From the NCBI GenBank assembly GCA_013348845.1, contig CP054675.1, positions 434,001-498,000 on the forward strand: DNA of 64,000 nt, read 5' to 3'. Position 1 is the first letter of the stretch, and every line of letters begins with the position of its first letter. This stretch comes from Candidatus Tepidiaquacella proteinivora (GTDB taxonomy: Bacteria; Bacteroidota; Ignavibacteria; Tepidaquicellales; Tepidaquicellaceae). Positions 11,994 to 20,376 of the stretch are shown piece by piece. The position numbers were made by a program, and so were the translations under genes. The notes beneath the pieces were generated by a model, which saw only the letters and a program-made list of their open reading frames with translations, did no database searches and was not told the DNA's origin.

Positions 11994-12069
11994 GCTAGCG
12001 TAGCTCAGTTGGTAGAGCAGTTGATTCGTAATCAACAGGTCAGGGGTTCAAATCCCCTCGCTAGCTCCA
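11994..12069 (+). tRNA. tRNA-Thr (anticodon CGT)
   Basis: A complete cloverleaf can be drawn. The acceptor stem is GCTAGCG with CGCTAGC. The D-arm is GCTCAGTTGGTAGAGC. The anticodon stem GTTGA/TCAAC encloses the loop TTCGTAA, giving anticodon CGT (Thr, reading ACG). The T-arm is AGGGG/CCCCT around TTCAAAT. The discriminator is T and CCA is encoded at 12067-12069. About 230 bases upstream contain no gene. Confidence 0.96.
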
Positions 12070-12141: not shown

Positions 12142-13728
12142 TTGAAAAAGTTAATTATAATTTTAATTCTTCTTGGACTTGTTGTAATTAATGTTATTTT
12201 TCTGATCTTACCACGTACCAGGACTGAAACTCAACTTGAAATTTTAAAGAATAAATATTCAAAGAAAGATAGCAGTTCAGTCAGGCATTCTGATTTCGAA
12301 ATATTGAAGAGAAAATTTTCTAAACCACAAGATGTTACTGAATCTTGTTTGCATTGTCATAATGGTAGAGGACAGGAAGTTTTAGAGTCTAATCATTGGA
12401 ATTGGGAAGAGCCGACTTATATTGAAGGTAAAGGAGTTGTTTATCTCGGTAAGAGAAACGCAATTAACAATTATTGTTTGGGGTCAGAAGGTAATGAGCT
12501 TGCTTGTGCAAAATGTCATATTGGTTATGGTATGCAATCAGTAAAAACATTTGACTTTGAAGATGTAAAAAATATAGATTGTTTAATCTGTCATGATAAT
12601 ACAGAGACCTATGCAAAAGCTCAGGAAAAAGGTGGTGAACCGGAATCTGATCTTGACTTTTCTTATATAGCCCAAAATGTCGGGAAACCCAAACGCTCTA
12701 ATTGTGGAGTTTGTCACTTTTATGGCGGTGGTGGAAATAATGTTAAACATGGTGACCTTGAGAAATCAATGTTTGAACCAACAAGAGATATTGATGTGCA
12801 TATGGGGATTGAAGGTTCTAATTTACAATGTGTTGATTGCCATACTTCAGAAAAGCATAAAATATCCGGTAGATTATATTCTCTGGCTTCTACTAACACA
12901 AACAGGCTCAAATGTGAAAAATGTCATTATGATAACCTGCATAGTAAAAACATATTAAATGAACATTGCTTGAAAGTTGCCTGTCAGACCTGCCACATCC
13001 CTATATACGCTAAAGTAAATGCAACAAAAACTGAGTGGGATTGGTCAACAGCCGGGAAATTGAAAGATGGTGAACCATATGAAATAAACGATGAGGAAGG
13101 AAATCATATTTATCTTTCTACTAAAGGAAGTTTTAAGTGGGGAAAACAGTTAAAGCCGGATTATGTATGGTTTAACGGAACTGCAGATCATTATTTAAAA
13201 GGTGATATAATTAATGACCCAACGAAGCCCGTAATATTAAACAAGTTAAACGGAAGCTATAAAGATAGGGAGTCGAAAATATATCCTGTTAAAATTATGA
13301 AGACAAATCAATGCTACGATTCTGTATATAAAATTCTGACAATCCCCAAATTATTTGACCCAAAACTCGGAACAGGGGCTTTCTGGAAGGATTTCGATTG
13401 TCTTAAAGCACTTGATGTTGGAATGAAAGAACTTGGTTTGCCTTTCAGTGGAACTCTCGCTTTCATTAATACAAAAATGTATTGGCCTATTAATCATATG
13501 GTATCGACAAAAGATAAGTCCGTCCAATGTAAAGAGTGTCATACGAAAAATAACAGCAGACTTGCAGAACTGACAGGTTTTTATTTACCTGGTCGAGATT
13601 CAAATAAATTTGTTGAAATTTTTGGTAATACTATTATAATATTGACTTTCTTCGGAGTAATAATCCATGGGACACTTAGAATAATTATTAACATAAAGAG
13701 AAAAAAAACAAAAAAAGATGAAGACTAA
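12142..13728 (+). CDS. octaheme c-type cytochrome, tetrathionate reductase family
   Basis: A 528-residue protein starting with TTG at 12142, directly before an uncleaved-looking membrane segment or signal (KKLIIILILLGLVVINVIF). Eight CXXCH haem sites are present at about residues 69, 122, 147, 188, 230, 258, 281 and 463. The conserved blocks GKRNAINNYC, CAKCHIGYG, CHFYGGGGNNVKHGDL and DVHMG match the octaheme tetrathionate reductase (Otr) family as I recall it. A second membrane segment (about 494-516) anchors the C-terminus, which the soluble Shewanella enzyme lacks. It overlaps the cytochrome b gene by 11 bases. Likely substrates are tetrathionate, or nitrite/hydroxylamine as known in vitro for this family; direction and substrate in vivo are inferred. 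Confidence 0.85.
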   Translation: MKKLIIILILLGLVVINVIFLILPRTRTETQLEILKNKYSKKDSSSVRHSDFEILKRKFSKPQDVTESCLHCHNGRGQEVLESNHWNWEEPTYIEGKGVVYLGKRNAINNYCLGSEGNELACAKCHIGYGMQSVKTFDFEDVKNIDCLICHDNTETYAKAQEKGGEPESDLDFSYIAQNVGKPKRSNCGVCHFYGGGGNNVKHGDLEKSMFEPTRDIDVHMGIEGSNLQCVDCHTSEKHKISGRLYSLASTNTNRLKCEKCHYDNLHSKNILNEHCLKVACQTCHIPIYAKVNATKTEWDWSTAGKLKDGEPYEINDEEGNHIYLSTKGSFKWGKQLKPDYVWFNGTADHYLKGDIINDPTKPVILNKLNGSYKDRESKIYPVKIMKTNQCYDSVYKILTIPKLFDPKLGTGAFWKDFDCLKALDVGMKELGLPFSGTLAFINTKMYWPINHMVSTKDKSVQCKECHTKNNSRLAELTGFYLPGRDSNKFVEIFGNTIIILTFFGVIIHGTLRIIINIKRKKTKKDED

Positions 13729-14338
13729 AATATATATCTACAAAGGATTCGAAAGATTCTGGCACTGGACACAGGCATTACTTATCTTTCTGCTTATTTT
13801 TACAGGTTTTGAAGTTCATGGTACAATTAATTTTTTCGGATATGAAAATGCAGTTTCTTATCACAAAATAGCAGCTTATGTTTTTCTTATATTAATTGCT
13901 TTTGCAATCTTCTGGCACATAATTACTGGTGAATGGAAACAGTATTTACCAACGAAAAAAAATTTAAAAGCACAACTAAACTACTATATATTTGGAATAT
14001 TTCGGAACGAACCACATCCGACAAAAAAAACCACGTTAAGTAAACTTAATCCATTACAGAAATTAGTTTATGCAGGTTTGAAAATACTTGTCATTCCTGT
14101 ATTAGTTCTTTCTGGAATACTTTATCTGTTTTTCAGATACCCACAATCGATGGGCACGGGATATTTAAATATAGGTTCACTAAATACAATAGCAGTGATT
14201 CACACTGCTGGTGCGTATTTATTGATAGCATTTATTATTGCGCATTTGTATTTGATAACAACTGGTACTACTATTACATCGAATCTGAAAGCTATGATTA
14301 CCGGATATGAAGAGATTGATACTGAGGATAAAGAATAA
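13718..14338 (+). CDS. membrane cytochrome b (b561/thiosulfate reductase type)
   Basis: A 206-residue protein with four hydrophobic segments. Histidines suited to bind two b haems lie in FWHWTQALLIF, GFEVHG, SYHKIAAYVF, FWHIITG, IHTAGAYLL and AHLYLITTG. This is the di-haem cytochrome b fold that links the quinone pool to periplasmic cytochromes. It overlaps the octaheme cytochrome gene by 11 bases, so it is the probable quinol-side partner of that enzyme. Two transporter genes follow. A thiosulfate-reductase or hydrogenase-type b subunit is the alternative label for the same fold, but no molybdoenzyme or hydrogenase gene is near. Confidence 0.85.
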   Translation: MKTKIYIYKGFERFWHWTQALLIFLLIFTGFEVHGTINFFGYENAVSYHKIAAYVFLILIAFAIFWHIITGEWKQYLPTKKNLKAQLNYYIFGIFRNEPHPTKKTTLSKLNPLQKLVYAGLKILVIPVLVLSGILYLFFRYPQSMGTGYLNIGSLNTIAVIHTAGAYLLIAFIIAHLYLITTGTTITSNLKAMITGYEEIDTEDKE

Positions 14339-14385
14339 AAAACGATTCATTTATTTTTATAAAGAAATAAAATATTCTATCTATA

Positions 14386-14901
14386 ATGGAGAAATCAAAA
14401 TATATGAATCCGTACCTTGCAGGATTTTTTCTCGGATTATTATTATTATTGACTATATATATTACAGGTAGGGGACTCGGAGCAAGCGGAGCATTCAAAA
14501 GCATGGTTGTTTATGCTGTTAATACTTTGTCCCCTGAACATACAGCTGCAAAACCTTATTATATTGAATACCTTTCTGAACATGAAGGTAATCCTCTAAA
14601 AAACTGGCTGATTTTCGAATTAATTGGTGTAGTTATAGGAGCATTCATATCTGGTTTAATATCAAACAGACTTGAATTTAAGTTAGAATTTCCGGAAAAA
14701 ATCACGAAGCGTGTGAGAATTATTTCTGCATTAATTGGTGGAGCACTATTTGGATTCGGTGCACAACTTGGGAGAGGTTGCACAAGTGGTGCAGCGTTGA
14801 GTGGTATGGCTGTTATGTCAGCAGGAGGTATTATTACTATGTTGGCTATTTTTGGTGGTGCTTATATGTTTGCATATTTTTTCAGAAAATTATGGATTTA
14901 A
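14386..14901 (+). CDS. YeeE/YedE family transporter (first, short)
   Basis: A 171-residue integral membrane protein with about four hydrophobic segments. It carries the family motif GAQLGRGCTSGAALSGMAVMSAGG, whose Cys is the conserved sulfur-handling residue of YeeE/YedE (TsuA-like) proteins, and GRGLGASGAFKS near the N-terminus. Characterised members import thiosulfate. It comes 47 bases after cytochrome b and 18 before a second family member, so the pair probably forms a two-part transporter. Substrate assignment is by family and by the octaheme-cytochrome neighbour. Confidence 0.85.
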   Translation: MEKSKYMNPYLAGFFLGLLLLLTIYITGRGLGASGAFKSMVVYAVNTLSPEHTAAKPYYIEYLSEHEGNPLKNWLIFELIGVVIGAFISGLISNRLEFKLEFPEKITKRVRIISALIGGALFGFGAQLGRGCTSGAALSGMAVMSAGGIITMLAIFGGAYMFAYFFRKLWI

Positions 14902-14919
14902 AAAAAGGAGAATAATTAT

Positions 14920-16113
14920 ATGGCACCTTTAGTACCTGATATTATTAGTAATGAATTTAATTTCATTATTGCAATCCTAATAGGAATTGCATTTGGTTAT
15001 ATACTAGAACAGGCAGGCTTTTCAAGTTCAAAAAAATTAGTTGGGCTTTTTTATGGCTATGATTTTACTGTTCTCCGTGTTTTCTTTACCGCAGGGATTA
15101 CTGCAATGTTTGGGGTTGTTGTATTAGGACATTTTGGATTACTTGATATTAGTATCATATACATTAATCCTACGTATTTATGGTCAGCTATTGTAGGTGG
15201 TGTTATAATGGGACTTGGTTTTGTTATAGGTGGTTTTTGTCCGGGAACAAGTGTTTGTGCCGCAGCAATAGGAAAAATTGATGCAATGATTTTTATTGTG
15301 GGTTCAATTATAGGTGTATTTGTGTTCTCAGAATTATATCCAATTTTAGAAGGGTTATATAAATCTGAATACTGGGGAAATGTCAGGATATTTGAAGTTA
15401 TTGGAATATCACAAGGATTGTTTTCTTTTCTGATGATTTTAATGGCAGTGTTTGCATTTGTTGTTACTACAATAATTGAAAAAAAGGTTAATAAAAAAGA
15501 CAATCCGGATTTAAAACCAACAGGCAGATATGTAACTTTTGCAGCTATAACAATAATTATTGGTTTATTTTCATTTGCACTACCGGAAAGACAGAAAGTT
15601 TTAATTGAAAAATCTAATAATCCTGATTTACTCGCAACTGCTGATTATAAAATTATGACCGCAGATGAACTTGCATACAGACTAATGTATGATATGAATT
15701 CATTTAGAATTTATGATCTGCGCTCAAAAGAATTATTTAACCAATTTTCATTACCTAATTCAATGAACATTTCACTTGATTATATTTTCAGTAAGGATGC
15801 AAGCAAATTGTTTACTGAAAGTTATAAAATGCAAATATTTGTTGATGAAACAGAAGAAGGGGCAAGAAGAGGAGCATTTCTTGCAGCAGAAATGGGATAT
15901 GAGAATATTTATGTTTTAAAAGGGGGATTAAATGAATTTCGTTCGGAGATATTGGAATTTAAAAAGCCAAACAGAGAATTAACACTGATAGAAAAAGATA
16001 ATTATAGGTTTAGGGAAATAGCTCAAAAGGAAATAAAAATTTTGATAGAAAAAGCAAAAACACAACAAAAACAGGAAGCACCTAAGACAAAACGTGTGTT
16101 GGGTGGCTGCTAA
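14920..16113 (+). CDS. YeeE/YedE transporter fused to a rhodanese-like domain
   Basis: A 397-residue protein. Residues 1 to about 200 form the membrane transporter, with the motif GLGFVIGGFCPGTSVCAAAIGKIDAM holding the conserved Cys. Residues about 245-350 form a rhodanese-like domain (RIYDLRSKELFNQFSLPNSMNIS, then YENIYVLKGGLNEF). The active-site loop reads FVDETEEGARRG, so the catalytic Cys of true rhodaneses is missing. The protein ends in GGC, leaving a single Cys at the extreme C-terminus. A ribosome-binding site AAAAGGAG precedes the ATG. It ends the sulfur-redox gene cluster. It probably imports thiosulfate or a related sulfur anion and hands it on; the role of the domain is inferred. 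Confidence 0.85.
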   Translation: MAPLVPDIISNEFNFIIAILIGIAFGYILEQAGFSSSKKLVGLFYGYDFTVLRVFFTAGITAMFGVVVLGHFGLLDISIIYINPTYLWSAIVGGVIMGLGFVIGGFCPGTSVCAAAIGKIDAMIFIVGSIIGVFVFSELYPILEGLYKSEYWGNVRIFEVIGISQGLFSFLMILMAVFAFVVTTIIEKKVNKKDNPDLKPTGRYVTFAAITIIIGLFSFALPERQKVLIEKSNNPDLLATADYKIMTADELAYRLMYDMNSFRIYDLRSKELFNQFSLPNSMNISLDYIFSKDASKLFTESYKMQIFVDETEEGARRGAFLAAEMGYENIYVLKGGLNEFRSEILEFKKPNRELTLIEKDNYRFREIAQKEIKILIEKAKTQQKQEAPKTKRVLGGC

Positions 16114-16357: not shown

Positions 16358-16702
16358 TTAATTAGGGGTATGCTCAGATGAATTTTGAAGAATTTCTTTT
16401 ATCGATGGTATAGTAGAAAGATGAGTAAATCTGTCTGATAGCAAAACAAGTTGTACTTTATTTCGGTCGAATATTTTTTTTACCTTAATCCCAAAGTTAT
16501 TTGAGAAAACGGTCTTAACACCTTTATTTATCAAAAATTTAGCTGCTTCAATACCTGAAAAATTTACTTCTTCAGAACCAGGGTTTCGAAAAAATTTATA
16601 ATTTTTATTCTTAGAATCTATAATTATAAAATATTCTGATTTTCCGAAACAATCATTAATTTTCGAGTTAATGTTTTCTTCTTCTATTGTAATTGCAATC
16701 AT
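16358..16702 (-). CDS. NifX/NifB-type dinitrogenase cofactor-domain protein
   Basis: A 114-residue cytoplasmic protein with the small RNase H-like fold of the NifX/NifY/NifB-C-terminal family: MIAITIEEENINSKINDCFGKSEYFIIID at the start and FSGIEAAKFLINKGVKTVFSNNFG in the middle. Family members bind iron-sulfur or iron-molybdenum cofactors. Stand-alone forms are common in organisms without nitrogenase, where their role is unknown. It is the last of three leftward genes and starts 3 bases after the UPF0251 regulator. It is shorter and more divergent than its paralogue at 17107-17496 and lacks that protein's His-rich stretch. Confidence 0.75.
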   Translation of the reverse strand: MIAITIEEENINSKINDCFGKSEYFIIIDSKNKNYKFFRNPGSEEVNFSGIEAAKFLINKGVKTVFSNNFGIKVKKIFDRNKVQLVLLSDRFTHLSTIPSIKEILQNSSEHTPN

Positions 16703-16705
16703 AAA

Positions 16706-17107
16706 TCATAATTTATAAAGTTCTGATGAATTACATACTGGACATAATTCTTGAAATAAGTCCGGGTCGGGTATATTAAATTCGGATCCACAGACTTTAC
16801 ATTTATACCAACTTCCGTGTAATGTTGTATTACCTTCTTTTACTTCAAGTTCTCTTATTTCAATTAGAGCCGTGGCTAATTTTTTTCTTGCTTTTTCATA
16901 AATTCTCGTTATTGTTGGTCTAGAAATTCCCATCACTTTTGCTGCCTGAGAATGATTCAGAAGCTCATAATCAATAAGTCTTAATGCATGATATTCTTCT
17001 GAAAGAAGGGTAACTTTTTTTTTCTCCGCTACATTAGAATTAATAGGAGAAAAAGTTATAGTGGGATGCGGTAAATAAAGTTTCCTTATCTTAATTGGTC
17101 TTACCAT
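16706..17107 (-). CDS. UPF0251 (DUF134) DNA-binding protein with zinc ribbon
   Basis: A 133-residue protein. It starts with MVRPIKIRKLYLPHPTITFSP, the family's characteristic opening. A sigma-70 region-4-like helix-turn-helix follows (NHSQAAKVMGISRPTITRIYEKARKKL). The C-terminus is a zinc ribbon with CKVC and CPVC (about residues 108-128). UPF0251 proteins are typically found beside NifX-like genes, as here on both sides, and are presumed regulators of them. Its start codon overlaps the stop of the preceding gene by one base. A small inverted repeat at 17519-17534, upstream of the operon, could be its operator. Confidence 0.88.
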   Translation of the reverse strand: MVRPIKIRKLYLPHPTITFSPINSNVAEKKKVTLLSEEYHALRLIDYELLNHSQAAKVMGISRPTITRIYEKARKKLATALIEIRELEVKEGNTTLHGSWYKCKVCGSEFNIPDPDLFQELCPVCNSSELYKL

Positions 17108-17496
17108 TAATGATGTTTATCTCCTGAACAACTTCTTGAAGTATCGTTTAATAATTTCCCTTGTAAATATAACTCTACAGCTCTTTCTGCCTGTGTTTCT
17201 GCCGTTAGTACAACATTAATACCATTATTTTCTAAGTCATTAATTAAACCGGGACCAGCGCCGGAACAAATAAGAACAGAACAATCTTTAAGCCCTTCAA
17301 TTATTCTGTGATGTTTCCCTCTATGTTCATGATCGTGATGACCACCTAATCGATGATTAGTAAAATTATTAATTCTTTTTTCAATATTCATAATTTTATC
17401 TTCTTTCGTATCAAAGATTATAAACATTTCACATCTACCAACATGGCCTGTAATATAAATTCCATCATCAGAGGCAACTGCTATTTTCTTTTCCAT
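17107..17496 (-). CDS. NifX/NifB-type protein with His-rich loop
   Basis: A 129-residue protein of the dinitrogenase iron-molybdenum cofactor family: MEKKIAVASDDGIYITGHVGRCEMFIIFD at the N-terminus, and LKDCSVLICSGAGPGLINDLENNGI in the core. A central loop is rich in histidine (LGGHHDHEHRGKHHR, about residues 50-64) and the tail has CSGDKHH, both suited to metal binding. It is the first gene of a three-gene leftward unit with UPF0251 and a second NifX-like gene. No nif structural genes are present, so a metal or Fe-S trafficking role is more likely than nitrogen fixation. That role is inferred. Confidence 0.85.
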   Translation of the reverse strand: MEKKIAVASDDGIYITGHVGRCEMFIIFDTKEDKIMNIEKRINNFTNHRLGGHHDHEHRGKHHRIIEGLKDCSVLICSGAGPGLINDLENNGINVVLTAETQAERAVELYLQGKLLNDTSRSCSGDKHH

Positions 17497-17690: not shown

Positions 17691-18398
17691 TTATTTTTTT
17701 AGAATCTTATCGTAAATTATTTCTTCGGGGAGTTCTTTTGTACAGAAGAACCAATCATAGCACTTAATATCTTGTTTACCTTCCATCCTTTCTTTAGCAA
17801 CACCACAGGAACCTGGTGGGGGAACGATTACTTCATCTCCAGGACGCCAGTCAGCCGGAGTAGCAACAGAAAATGCATCAGCAGTTTGTAATGCAATTAA
17901 CACCCTGTATAGCTCATCGAAGTTTCTTCCAAGACTTAAAGGGTAATAAATAATTGTTCTGATTATCCCTTTCGGGTCAATAAAGAATACGGCTCGTACT
18001 GCCTTTGTTGAGCTTTCACCAGGCTGTATCATTCCATACTTTTTCGCTACATTCATTGTAATATCTTCAATCAGGGGAAATTTGACTTCAACATCTTTCA
18101 TTCCTTTAAATTGAATTTTCTCTTTAATCGTTCTTAACCATGCGATATGACTATAAAGACCATCAACAGAAAGACCAATAAGTTTGCAATTTGCTTTTGC
18201 AAACTTATCTTCCAAAGAAGCAAAAGTCATAAATTCTGAAGTACATACTGGAGTAAAATCAGCCGGATGACTGAATAAAATAACCCAACTCCCTTTATAA
18301 TCGTTAGGGAAATGGATTGTTCCCTGAGTAGTTTCTGCGGTGAACTCAGGTGCCGGGTCGCCAATTCTTGGCATTGGGAATACATTGTTTTCTTCCAT
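17691..18398 (-). CDS. peroxiredoxin (Prx6-type, AhpC/TSA family)
   Basis: A 235-residue cytoplasmic thiol peroxidase that reduces hydrogen peroxide and organic peroxides. The peroxidatic Cys52 sits in HPADFTPVCTSEF (TxxC motif). The long C-terminal arm contains three further cysteines (GSCGVAKE and KCYDWFFCTK), the arrangement of archaeal-type Prx6 enzymes in which C-terminal cysteines resolve the sulfenic acid. It is the last gene of a leftward trio after a Fur/PerR-like regulator and a ferritin-like protein, and is followed by a strong terminator. Induction by peroxide through that regulator is likely. Confidence 0.93.
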   Translation of the reverse strand: MEENNVFPMPRIGDPAPEFTAETTQGTIHFPNDYKGSWVILFSHPADFTPVCTSEFMTFASLEDKFAKANCKLIGLSVDGLYSHIAWLRTIKEKIQFKGMKDVEVKFPLIEDITMNVAKKYGMIQPGESSTKAVRAVFFIDPKGIIRTIIYYPLSLGRNFDELYRVLIALQTADAFSVATPADWRPGDEVIVPPPGSCGVAKERMEGKQDIKCYDWFFCTKELPEEIIYDKILKK

Positions 18399-18426
18399 AT
18401 CTATTTTATTTAATTTTTTAAAAAAA

Positions 18427-18936
18427 TCATTGATTTTGTTGTGATGTTAATGGTTGAGAAGATATTGCTTTACTATTCTCAATTGATTGTAAAGCAAGAT
18501 AATTATCACCGAATTTTCTTAAGTTTTCTGTTTCTGTGTCAAACTGGTCAAAATGTCTTTCCTCATCCTCCACAAGTGCTTCAAATATTTTTTTCGAGGC
18601 AGAATCTGCATTTTTTGCGCATTCATTTGCCCATAGATTGTAATTTAAAGCACTTTCGTTTTCCATTTTTGCTGCTAAAAGTAACATTTCCTTAGGATCG
18701 TGAATTTTTTTTACTGGTCCGGAAGGAATCATTTCAACTTCACCTTTCAGAAACAAAATTCTTTCTGCCAGTCGTTCAGTGTGAAGCATTTCTTCGATAG
18801 CAATTCTTTTAAATAAATTTGATAATGGAAGATATCCCATATCACTACAGTGAAAATGGAAAAACATATATTGATGAACCGCTGTTAGTTCATCGGCTAC
18901 AGCTTTATTCAGAAGTTCAATGCTTTTTTCTTTCAT
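18427..18936 (-). CDS. bacterioferritin-like iron storage protein
   Basis: A 169-residue four-helix ferritin-like protein. The di-iron ligands expected for bacterioferritin are all visible: Glu16, Glu49 and His52 in EEMLHTERLAERI, a Glu in MENESALNY (about 92), and Glu126 with His129 in EDEERHFDQF. It should oxidise ferrous iron and store it, limiting Fenton chemistry. It lies 28 bases upstream of the peroxiredoxin gene and 26 bases after the Fur/PerR-like gene, so the three form a peroxide/iron defence operon. The haem-binding Met of bacterioferritin is not clearly identifiable, so a non-haem ferritin-like (Dps- or VTC-type) role is possible. Confidence 0.85.
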   Translation of the reverse strand: MKEKSIELLNKAVADELTAVHQYMFFHFHCSDMGYLPLSNLFKRIAIEEMLHTERLAERILFLKGEVEMIPSGPVKKIHDPKEMLLLAAKMENESALNYNLWANECAKNADSASKKIFEALVEDEERHFDQFDTETENLRKFGDNYLALQSIENSKAISSQPLTSQQNQ

Positions 18937-18962
18937 AGCTAATGAATTTAATTTATAATAAG

Positions 18963-19379
18963 TTATTTATTTTTTCTTCCAATAATGTGAACTTTAATAT
19001 TTTCTATTTTTAAATCAGGTATTTTTTTCTTCTTAAAATAGTTTGATAATATTAAATCGAGTTTAACATCGTGGTAATCAACTAAAATGTTTCTATCGGA
19101 GTAATAAATATGATGATGATTTTTATCAGGAAACTCATATCTCATAATATTATTATAAGTCTCAACTTTTCTGATAACTCCATATTTCACTAAAGTTTCA
19201 AGAACTTTATATATTGTGCCAGTTGATATAGATGAGTTAAATTTCTTAACATATTTAATAATACTTTCAGCTGTTGGATGATTCTTGGAAATATAAATTG
19301 CTTTAAGGACCAGTATTCGTTGAGGTGTAATTTTTAATGATTTATCTTTTAGAATATTTATAAATTTGTTGTTATCCAT
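18963..19379 (-). CDS. Fur/PerR-family transcriptional regulator without zinc-site cysteines
   Basis: A 138-residue regulator with an N-terminal winged helix (LKITPQRILVLKAIYISKNHPTAESI, STGTIYKVLETLVKYGVI) and a metal-binding dimerisation half (RYEFPDKNHHHIYYSDRN, DYHD). The protein has no cysteine, so the CxxC structural zinc sites of classic Fur and PerR are absent. The His-rich regulatory site remains. It heads a leftward operon with ferritin-like and peroxiredoxin genes, pointing to PerR-like peroxide sensing. The AT-rich inverted repeat at 19422-19455 upstream is a candidate autoregulatory site. Confidence 0.88.
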   Translation of the reverse strand: MDNNKFINILKDKSLKITPQRILVLKAIYISKNHPTAESIIKYVKKFNSSISTGTIYKVLETLVKYGVIRKVETYNNIMRYEFPDKNHHHIYYSDRNILVDYHDVKLDLILSNYFKKKKIPDLKIENIKVHIIGRKNK

Positions 19380-19421
19380 TTATTAGTTATGAATTATTCT
19401 TATTAAAGAACAAATATACAA

Positions 19422-19455
19422 ATAATAATAATTATTATCAAGTAATTATTATTAT
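19422..19455. promoter_or_regulatory. candidate Fur/PerR operator
   Basis: Perfect 12-base inverted arms ATAATAATAATT (19422-19433) and AATTATTATTAT (19444-19455) with a 10-base spacer. The left arm continues into a second palindrome, ATAATAATTATTAT (19425-19438). The complementary strand reads GATAATAATTATTATTATT, close in form to the classical Fur box. It lies about 43 bases upstream of the Fur/PerR-like start, in the divergent gap with arsR. Low base complexity is the main reservation. Confidence 0.5.
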
Positions 19456-19566
19456 AAGTATTAAATAGTATTTAGATATATATAATATCAAAGTAAAAAA
19501 CTAAAAAGAATATGATAATTTCAATATTAAAACAATTTTAACTTGATAAAGGATTATATCATTTCT

Positions 19567-19582
19567 ATATTTTATAAAATAT
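19567..19582. promoter_or_regulatory. candidate ArsR operator palindrome
   Basis: Perfect 16-base palindrome ATATTTTATAAAATAT ending 9 bases before the arsR start codon. ArsR-family repressors bind AT-rich dyads at their own promoters, so autoregulation is plausible. The AT-rich background makes a chance palindrome possible. Confidence 0.4.
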
Positions 19583-19591
19583 CAAAATAAA

Positions 19592-19930
19592 ATGTTAAAA
19601 AAATATGAAAAAATATATAAAGCATTGTCTGATAAGAGCCGATTAAGAATTTTAAAAATGTTGCAGGTTAAGCCTTTATGTGTATGTGAGATAACTTCAT
19701 TATTAAATCTTGCGATTTCAACAGTTTCTAAACATCTTAGTATTTTAAAGAATTCCGGATTAATAGTTGATGAGAAAGACGGAAAGTGGGTAAACTATAA
19801 ATTGAATAATGATACAAAAGATGATATTGTATTAGACATACTATTATTTATTCGGTTATCTCTTAATAATGATGAAATTATTGTTTCTGATAGAGAAAGA
19901 GCTTTTAAAATTGACAGGAGGTTAATTTAA
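19592..19930 (+). CDS. arsR: ArsR-family transcriptional repressor
   Basis: A 112-residue winged-helix repressor: [45 protein letters not shown]. The CVCE motif in the DNA-binding helix is the classic arsenite-binding pair (Cys33 and Cys35 by count), which releases DNA on binding As(III). The wing follows ([12 protein letters not shown]). It is the first gene of a rightward trio with arsenate reductase and a small thioredoxin. Its function in arsenic response is supported by both motif and neighbours. Confidence 0.92.
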
Positions 19931-19941
19931 AACAACTATTT

Positions 19942-20376
19942 ATGAATAAAATTAAAATACTTTTTGTTTGCGTTCATAACAGCGCGAGAAGTCAAATGGC
20001 AGAAGCTTTTATTAACACTTATTATTCTGATAGATTTGAAGCGGATAGTGCCGGTTTAGAACCGGGGAAATTAAACCCATTGGTTGTTAAGTCAATGTCA
20101 GAAATAGGGATTGATATATCACACAAAAAGACAAAAGATGTTTTTGATTTATACAAATCAGGTGCATTTTATAATTATGTAATTACTGTATGTGATGAAG
20201 CATCAGGGCAAAGGTGCCCTATTTTTCCCAATACCATAAAAACTCTACATTGGTCATTTGAAGACCCTTCAGGTTTTGTTGGAACCGAGGAAGAAAAATT
20301 AAAAAAAATTGCTTTAGTTAGAGATGCAATAAAAGAAAAAATAGATTTATTTATAAAATCAATAAATATTTCTTAA
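19942..20376 (+). CDS. arsC: thioredoxin-coupled arsenate reductase
   Basis: A 144-residue protein of the low-molecular-weight tyrosine phosphatase fold. The catalytic loop is C-X5-R (CVHNSAR, Cys10 to Arg16). The general acid is in FEDPSGF, and two further cysteines lie in [14 protein letters not shown], the relay used by thioredoxin-dependent ArsC. It reduces arsenate to arsenite in the cytoplasm. It sits 11 bases after arsR and is followed 1 base later by a small thioredoxin-like gene that may supply electrons. No arsenite efflux pump gene follows. Confidence 0.92.

Follow-up and report, generated by a model that had tools for sequence, protein, structure and literature searches.

A recurrent operon joining an octahaem cytochrome to a split YeeE/YedE transporter with a conserved Gly-Gly-Cys tail in Candidatus Tepidiaquacella proteinivora, and its possible role in coupling sulfur-compound reduction to sulfur import

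Why would a cytochrome of the octahaem tetrathionate reductase (OTR) family be encoded together with a sulfur transporter of the YeeE/YedE family? The question is raised by four plus-strand genes (12142-16113) of Candidatus Tepidiaquacella proteinivora Ch128a, an Ignavibacteriae bacterium assembled from a 2.8-km deep Siberian aquifer (PMC7509429). The window analyzed here is a stretch of 64,000 nucleotides (positions 434001-498000) of the single 2,403,876-bp chromosome. In order, the genes encode OTR, a cytochrome b and two half-length transporter proteins, YeeC and YeeN, the last of which carries, beyond its membrane part, a rhodanese-like domain and then a tail with Gly-Gly-Cys (GGC) at its end. 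Gene linkage, protein anatomy and an exchange of the reductase, all observed, point to a sulfur-compound reductase outside the cytoplasm that is coupled to sulfur import by a mobile cysteine arm, a reading to which we give about an even chance of being right. The unit is flanked by tRNA-Thr (11994-12069) and an opposite-strand gene; the OTR and cytochrome b genes overlap by 11 bases, and the remaining intergenic gaps are 47 and 18 bases.

The four-gene order was found in 55 of 80 named loci from several phyla, with hosts that include Ignavibacteria, Bacteroidia, Acidobacteriota, Planctomycetota, Armatimonadota and LCP-89 records (surveyed loci carry L-numbers, such as L083 or L213, and G001 is a genome of the same genus). 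Rhodaneses are added around YeeC-YeeN in nine (perhaps 10) of the 80, termed variant B, with three GGC proteins in each of the nine; a variant C is weighed below, and three loci are cut by contig ends. The named loci carry a bias towards the query alignment, and therefore 395 genomes sampled evenly across Bacteroidota were searched as well (twice). Within 3 kb of OTR and on its strand lay 35 of the 41 full-length YeeN in this sample, which rules out chance gene adjacency; the two proteins occurred together in 36 genomes, YeeN alone in 5, OTR alone in 20 and neither in 334 (Fisher p=3e-31, not corrected for phylogeny). A first-pass annotation of this DNA had taken the four genes for one unit and had proposed looking for their conserved co-occurrence in other genomes. 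That search has now been run and the co-occurrence was found, so the unit stands; the same annotation thought the arrangement unusual, and the module is instead widespread and conserved.

What does the first pair of genes encode? The product of the first (12142-13728) is a 528-amino-acid octahaem cytochrome c with an N-terminal signal anchor and a C-terminal anchor helix (IIILTFFGVIIHGTLRI). It is a full-model member of the OTR family (TIGR04315, 560 bits against a cut-off of 375, E=3.4e-168, model positions 2-440) and aligns over 419 residues with Shewanella oneidensis OTR (1SP3, E=1e-118). Its eight CXXCH motifs lie at residues 69, 122, 147, 188, 230, 258, 281 and 463. Lys202 aligns with residue 153 of 1SP3, and we take this active-site lysine to be the ligand of the catalytic haem; an invariant non-haem cysteine, Cys112, aligns with residue 64. 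The start codon is TTG, which is supported because relatives have Met in that alignment column. The S. oneidensis protein thus shares the full length, the eight motifs, the Lys and the Cys, but is described as soluble, periplasmic and STC-interacting, whereas the window's OTR has an anchor at each end and occurs together with a cytochrome b and an importer.

The second gene (13718-14338) encodes a cytochrome b561-type membrane subunit (PF01292, E=6e-30, 104.7 bits against a cut-off of 30.1) with four predicted transmembrane helices and, in the alignment, invariant His at residues 16, 34, 49, 100, 162 and 176; a thiosulfate reductase cytochrome B model also matches (E 9e-34), below that model's cut-off. 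From these features it is predicted to be the quinone-side partner of OTR. A cytochrome b follows 91 of the 92 OTRs that have a hydrophobic C-terminal segment, versus 1 of the 14 without one (p=1e-14, a value that ignores phylogeny). Of the two discordant cases, L102 is a start-codon artefact (its cytochrome b open reading frame [ORF] is listed) and L072 has a helix just under threshold. This covariation of anchor and cytochrome b supports the OTR-cytochrome b complex suggested at first pass. In the four inspected loci of family f2/genus g17, anchor and cytochrome b are both absent and YeeC-YeeN is retained; the importer there therefore follows OTR, not cytochrome b.

Two other arrangements of the cytochrome were seen. 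In L200 and L214 (family f30), OTR and then cytochrome b are encoded, with neither YeeE nor rhodanese. The variant C cytochromes b of L110 (5745-6917), L109, L117, L122, L128 and L129 are 383 to 390 amino acids long, with a C-terminal extension that reads as PAS-sensor-like. An OTR near a thiosulfate-reductase cytochrome b gene is likewise found at the Beggiatoaceae BOGUAY_2386 locus, where tetrathionate activity was measured; Mo-type reductase genes come next, and the YeeE/rhodanese arm is not mentioned in the available part of that paper (PMC6449678).

The second pair of genes had been read as twin transporters. YeeC (14386-14901, PmpA-like) matches positions 175-309 of the PF04143 profile, its C half (E 5e-24, 85.8 bits), and the membrane part of YeeN (14920-15583, PmpB-like) matches positions 10-162, its N half (E 4e-14, 53.3 bits; cut-off 27 for both). 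Twin transporters are therefore ruled out: because the two genes match different, complementary halves of the family, they form one split transporter. Otherwise the first-pass description of the locus held, namely an OTR-family cytochrome with eight CXXCH and hydrophobic segments at both ends, an overlapping cytochrome b and two YeeE/YedE genes, their coordinates, families and Cys motifs (GRGCTSG and GGFCPGTS) all being confirmed.

The YeeC profile matches the C half of TsuA (6LEO residues 236-326), and YeeC Cys132 is aligned with the Cys of TsuA GGCNIG, Cys293. YeeN keeps Cys107, which is TsuA Cys91-like, and has no Cys22 equivalent. In the cysteine relay proposed for TsuA/TsuB, Cys293 is described as the first Cys and Cys22 lies at the cytoplasmic interface to YeeD (PMC11073785). 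A role for the tail as substitute for a missing periplasmic pore Cys was considered and rejected: the first-relay Cys293 is kept in YeeC, and the missing one is the cytoplasmic-exit Cys22. YeeN has a sixth transmembrane helix (residues 203-221), and its positive charges alternate such that the N-terminus and the rhodanese domain with its tail are predicted to lie outside. Several rhodaneses of the variant clusters have lipoprotein-like N-termini, consistent with an outside location.

The closest described arrangement is PmpA/PmpB, proposed as one YeeE-like heterodimer, which shares the two half-length genes and the TsuA Cys293 and Cys91 equivalents and likewise has no Cys22 equivalent (PMC11582611). 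The window's pair shows the same complementary half genes with one conserved pore Cys each, to which a rhodanese domain and an arm are added on the N half; YeeN thus differs from PmpB in an extra helix, the rhodanese domain and the GGC arm, and in its linkage to OTR or PsrABC. TsuA/TsuB belongs to the same transporter family, from which the window's transporter departs in its split pore, in the lack of TsuB/TusA in the genome and in an arm predicted to be periplasmic rather than cytoplasmic. The TsuA equivalog model gave 55.8 bits against a required 400, with two of the three Cys present, on two chains, and no TsuB.

What, then, is the extension of YeeN? A rhodanese-like domain (residues 258-342, PF00581, E=5e-10) and linker (15584-16071), predicted to be periplasmic, are fused to the membrane part and followed by a C-terminal tail (16072-16113) that ends in -KRVLGGC and that we propose as a sulfur-carrying arm. 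The earlier description of the last gene was incomplete here, mentioning neither the domain nor the -GGC end. The rhodanese catalytic Cys is missing from all 77 full-length YeeN homologues encoded beside OTR (the window's loop reads FVDETEEG), which sets them apart from active rhodaneses, and 76 of them keep a terminal GGC or GGLC. From the last transmembrane helix to the tail, only about 7 of 172 residues are conserved in at least 90% of homologues; because the domain keeps few residues and the tail is nearly invariant, the tail is under the stronger constraint. AlphaFold2 models the rhodanese domain with a confidence (pLDDT) of about 90 and residues 384-397 with one below 50, and Foldseek with the YeeN model placed rhodanese-domain structures at the top of its list.

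The tail is also specific to this setting. Of 2159 ORFs (at least 100 amino acids) from 100 loci, 104 end in GGC, counted with up to two residues following, each of the 104 being either a YeeN or a rhodanese protein; for 103, OTR is encoded within 6.5 kb on the same strand. The remaining one belongs to a second, divergent YeeC/YeeN copy in L083 (433-2271, minus strand), about 6 kb from the OTR cluster, with the N half and the GGC rhodanese as separate ORFs. A search of the window's genome, limited to TAA stops, gave a single ORF with GGC just before the stop, the window's YeeN. Controls consisted of 30 rhodanese ORFs from 15 related genomes, 29 of them without a GGC tail and the 30th in a PsrABC-type cluster; in G001, a rhodanese-domain protein lies next to a split YeeE pair that has no arm (L251). 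Several rhodanese architectures, some with an intact catalytic loop, carry the GGC tail at their extreme C-terminus.

Two known sulfur proteins offer a comparison. SoxY is a sulfur carrier with a C-terminal GGCGG on a mobile tail. Judged from sequence and model, the window's tail, with a conserved Cys in a mobile, Gly-rich C-terminus, may work in a similar way; it differs in sitting on a rhodanese-fold domain and in usually ending at the Cys, and Pfam and NCBIfam scans of the YeeN protein found no SoxY domain. Wolinella Sud (1QXN), a weak sequence match (E 2.5e-5), is likewise a periplasmic rhodanese-fold protein serving a membrane sulfur reductase (Psr). Sud uses its catalytic Cys, whereas YeeN has lost this residue, keeps the tail Cys and has an importer attached. 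The tail could instead be structural or regulatory (an inter-subunit disulfide, a metal site or a redox sensor) in a module otherwise as proposed, which would agree with the loss of the catalytic Cys from the rhodanese domain in all 77 homologues and with the fact that no tail adduct or structure is known. We consider this quite unlikely, since the tail is predicted to be disordered (AlphaFold2) and GGC appears on several rhodanese architectures, always beside a sulfur-type redox enzyme.

Which chemistry does the module serve? Six of the 41 full-length YeeN of the Bacteroidota sample were found away from OTR. Five of them (L208, L210-L213) belong to operons that encode a molybdenum (Mo) enzyme, an iron-sulfur (Fe-S) protein and NrfD and, after these, YeeC, YeeN and a rhodanese whose last residues are GGC or EGC, fused to YeeN in L213; the sixth, L209, lies on a short contig that breaks off before any partner enzyme could be seen and shows only YeeC, YeeN and a GGC rhodanese. 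Two further genomes with half-length YeeN matches (L216, L218) have the same PsrABC-type operon. The Mo enzyme of L212 has T. thermophilus 2VPW as its best PDB match (E 8e-223), and L210 and L211 served to confirm the NrfD and Fe-S families. All three PsrABC components are present in L208, L210-L213, L216, L218 and L252, with families verified on representatives. On a tree of the YeeN membrane part, three changes between OTR and PSR labels are all forced by supported branches, giving at least three partner switches. In the genomes examined, the arm occurs only beside OTR or beside a PsrABC-type sulfur-reducing enzyme. This repeated exchange, with the importer staying the same, is a separate line of genomic evidence for sulfur.

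The exchange bears directly on the view that OTR is a nitrite/hydroxylamine reductase or detoxification enzyme, placed beside a sulfur transporter by chance. The physiological substrate of OTR is unsettled because tetrathionate, nitrite and hydroxylamine are all reduced in vitro; S. oneidensis OTR reduces the latter two (Atkinson et al. 2007, as cited in PMC4484225), and its interaction with STC suggests a nitrite role in that organism (PMC4484225). The window's genome, however, encodes a separate NrfA (E 4.6e-169), YeeE halves and rhodaneses recur beside OTR, and OTR is exchanged with PsrABC, which together make a nitrogen-oxide enzyme very unlikely here. A sulfur role, as the first-pass annotation had preferred, is favoured by the Psr exchange, the rhodaneses of the variant clusters, the separate NrfA and published tetrathionate activity and induction: a Beggiatoaceae OTR reduces tetrathionate faster than nitrite in vitro (PMC6449678), and tetrathionate brought a 36-fold rise of otr transcripts in microcosms of Acidobacteriota (PMC8528874).

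Another element in place of sulfur, with OTR reducing a selenium or tellurium oxyanion and the YedE-like pair importing selenium, is hinted at by weak matches of YeeN and YeeC to YedE selenium-transporter models, by a match of a variant C double rhodanese to the ExtH selenite/tellurite model (below cut-off) and by SelD-like and MnmH-like genes side by side in the window's genome (L135). The YedE-model matches are, however, far below curated cut-offs, the SelD-like/MnmH-like pair is about 208 kb from the operon, and no selenium genes were recognized in the inspected OTR or PSR clusters; we regard this explanation as most improbable.

Where would imported sulfur go? The window's genome has no match to the TusA family, hence no TsuB/TusA, and no siroheme sulfite/nitrite reductase domain (NIR_SIR, including DsrAB) was found in it. 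A YTD disproportionation cluster (yedE with tusA and dsrE) was ruled out for this genome on the same two grounds. Because TusA and the siroheme reductase domain are absent, the imported sulfur would most likely serve biosynthesis, not Dsr-type oxidation. The only Molybdopterin-domain matches in the genome are a formate-dehydrogenase-like fusion and a 564-amino-acid frame taken for NuoG (from its size and a weak hit).

For a sulfur-reducing module, we infer the substrate, the loading of the arm and the direction of flux as follows. Quinol electrons would pass through cytochrome b to the OTR haems and there reduce a sulfur oxyanion or polysulfide, with tetrathionate as the best candidate. The flexible GGC arm would pick up sulfane sulfur, as a persulfide or with thiosulfate bound in a Cys S-thiosulfonate, either from the enzyme itself or from its product. 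Import would follow once the arm had passed this sulfur to the YeeC/YeeN pore at its periplasmic mouth, close to Cys132. That rhodanese-fold proteins, tethered to the split YeeE or to the membrane, form an extracytoplasmic relay whose -GGC arm shuttles sulfane sulfur between a quinol-linked reductase, be it OTR-cytochrome b or PsrABC, and the importer, making respiration and uptake one channelled unit, is a more tentative proposal, with a chance somewhat short of even.

Could the same parts run the other way? A SoxXA-like OTR would oxidatively attach thiosulfate or sulfide to the GGC arm, electrons would reach the quinone pool via cytochrome b, and the loaded arm would feed the importer. The mobile GGC tail does recall the SoxY GGCGG arm, OTR keeps its invariant non-haem Cys112, and otr adjoins soxY-S3/soxZ in lucinid symbionts (PMC11237559). 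Against this, the OTRs characterized so far are reductases, PsrABC, which can take the place of OTR, is known mainly for reduction, the genome shows neither TusA nor a Dsr that would handle sulfite, and the host is described as an anaerobe whose only named anaerobic terminal reductases are NrfAH and the Otr-cytochrome b561 cluster, cytochrome bd being thought to serve oxygen detoxification (PMC7509429). Oxidative loading thus appears unlikely.

Several observations weigh against reductive coupling to import as proposed above. Variant C, 12 of the 80 named loci, has OTR, cytochrome b and a GGC rhodanese with no YeeE detected downstream (some contigs are short), and the arm therefore need not feed an importer. 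OTR stands without the importer in 25 of 61 OTR hits of the Bacteroidota sample, including family f30 and short OTRs, and the importer is therefore not needed for OTR catalysis. The bias of the named loci has been mentioned; moreover, the homologue in L106 has lost the tail, the transmembrane parts of both AlphaFold2 models are poor, so that pore and arm geometry are not supported by them, and S. oneidensis OTR has been placed in a nitrite pathway (PMC4484225).

Each component comes from a known family. In the open-access literature searched, we found no earlier description of the armed importer or of its exchange between two unrelated reductases, nor any paper that links OTR to YeeE and a rhodanese or reports a GGC tail of this kind, an absence that is weak evidence of novelty. 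The authors of the Ch128a account list the same first two genes, Otr and cytochrome b561, and the available section on Otr has no split YeeE, rhodanese domain or arm (PMC7509429). If the -GGC arm does carry sulfur, it would be a swinging-arm carrier that works outside the cytoplasm and does not depend on SoxY, and GGC at the end of a rhodanese-fold protein would be a sequence mark for sulfur-respiring clusters where annotation of the Mo or haem enzyme is ambiguous. Cultured carriers (Mariniphaga anaerophila, Gaoshiqia sediminis and Carboxylicivirga linearis) make the sulfur role testable.

Some neighbouring genes were also recorded. Variant B and C clusters contain genes resembling outer-membrane porins (L110, 8600-9634, Porin_O_P; L118, 10304-11557, Alginate_exp; L120, 11909-13009, by position only), possibly for sulfur oxyanion entry. 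Just downstream of the operon in the window (16358-17496, minus strand) are two small NifX-like proteins and a DUF134-like protein, and in L201 and L202 the short OTRs likewise have small NifX-like and ParA-like genes nearby; with names taken from reading the sequences, these neighbours point to a possible second OTR association. Farther beyond the operon (17691-20376) is a cluster of peroxiredoxin-, ferritin-, Fur-, ArsR- and low-molecular-weight phosphatase-like genes, named in the same way.

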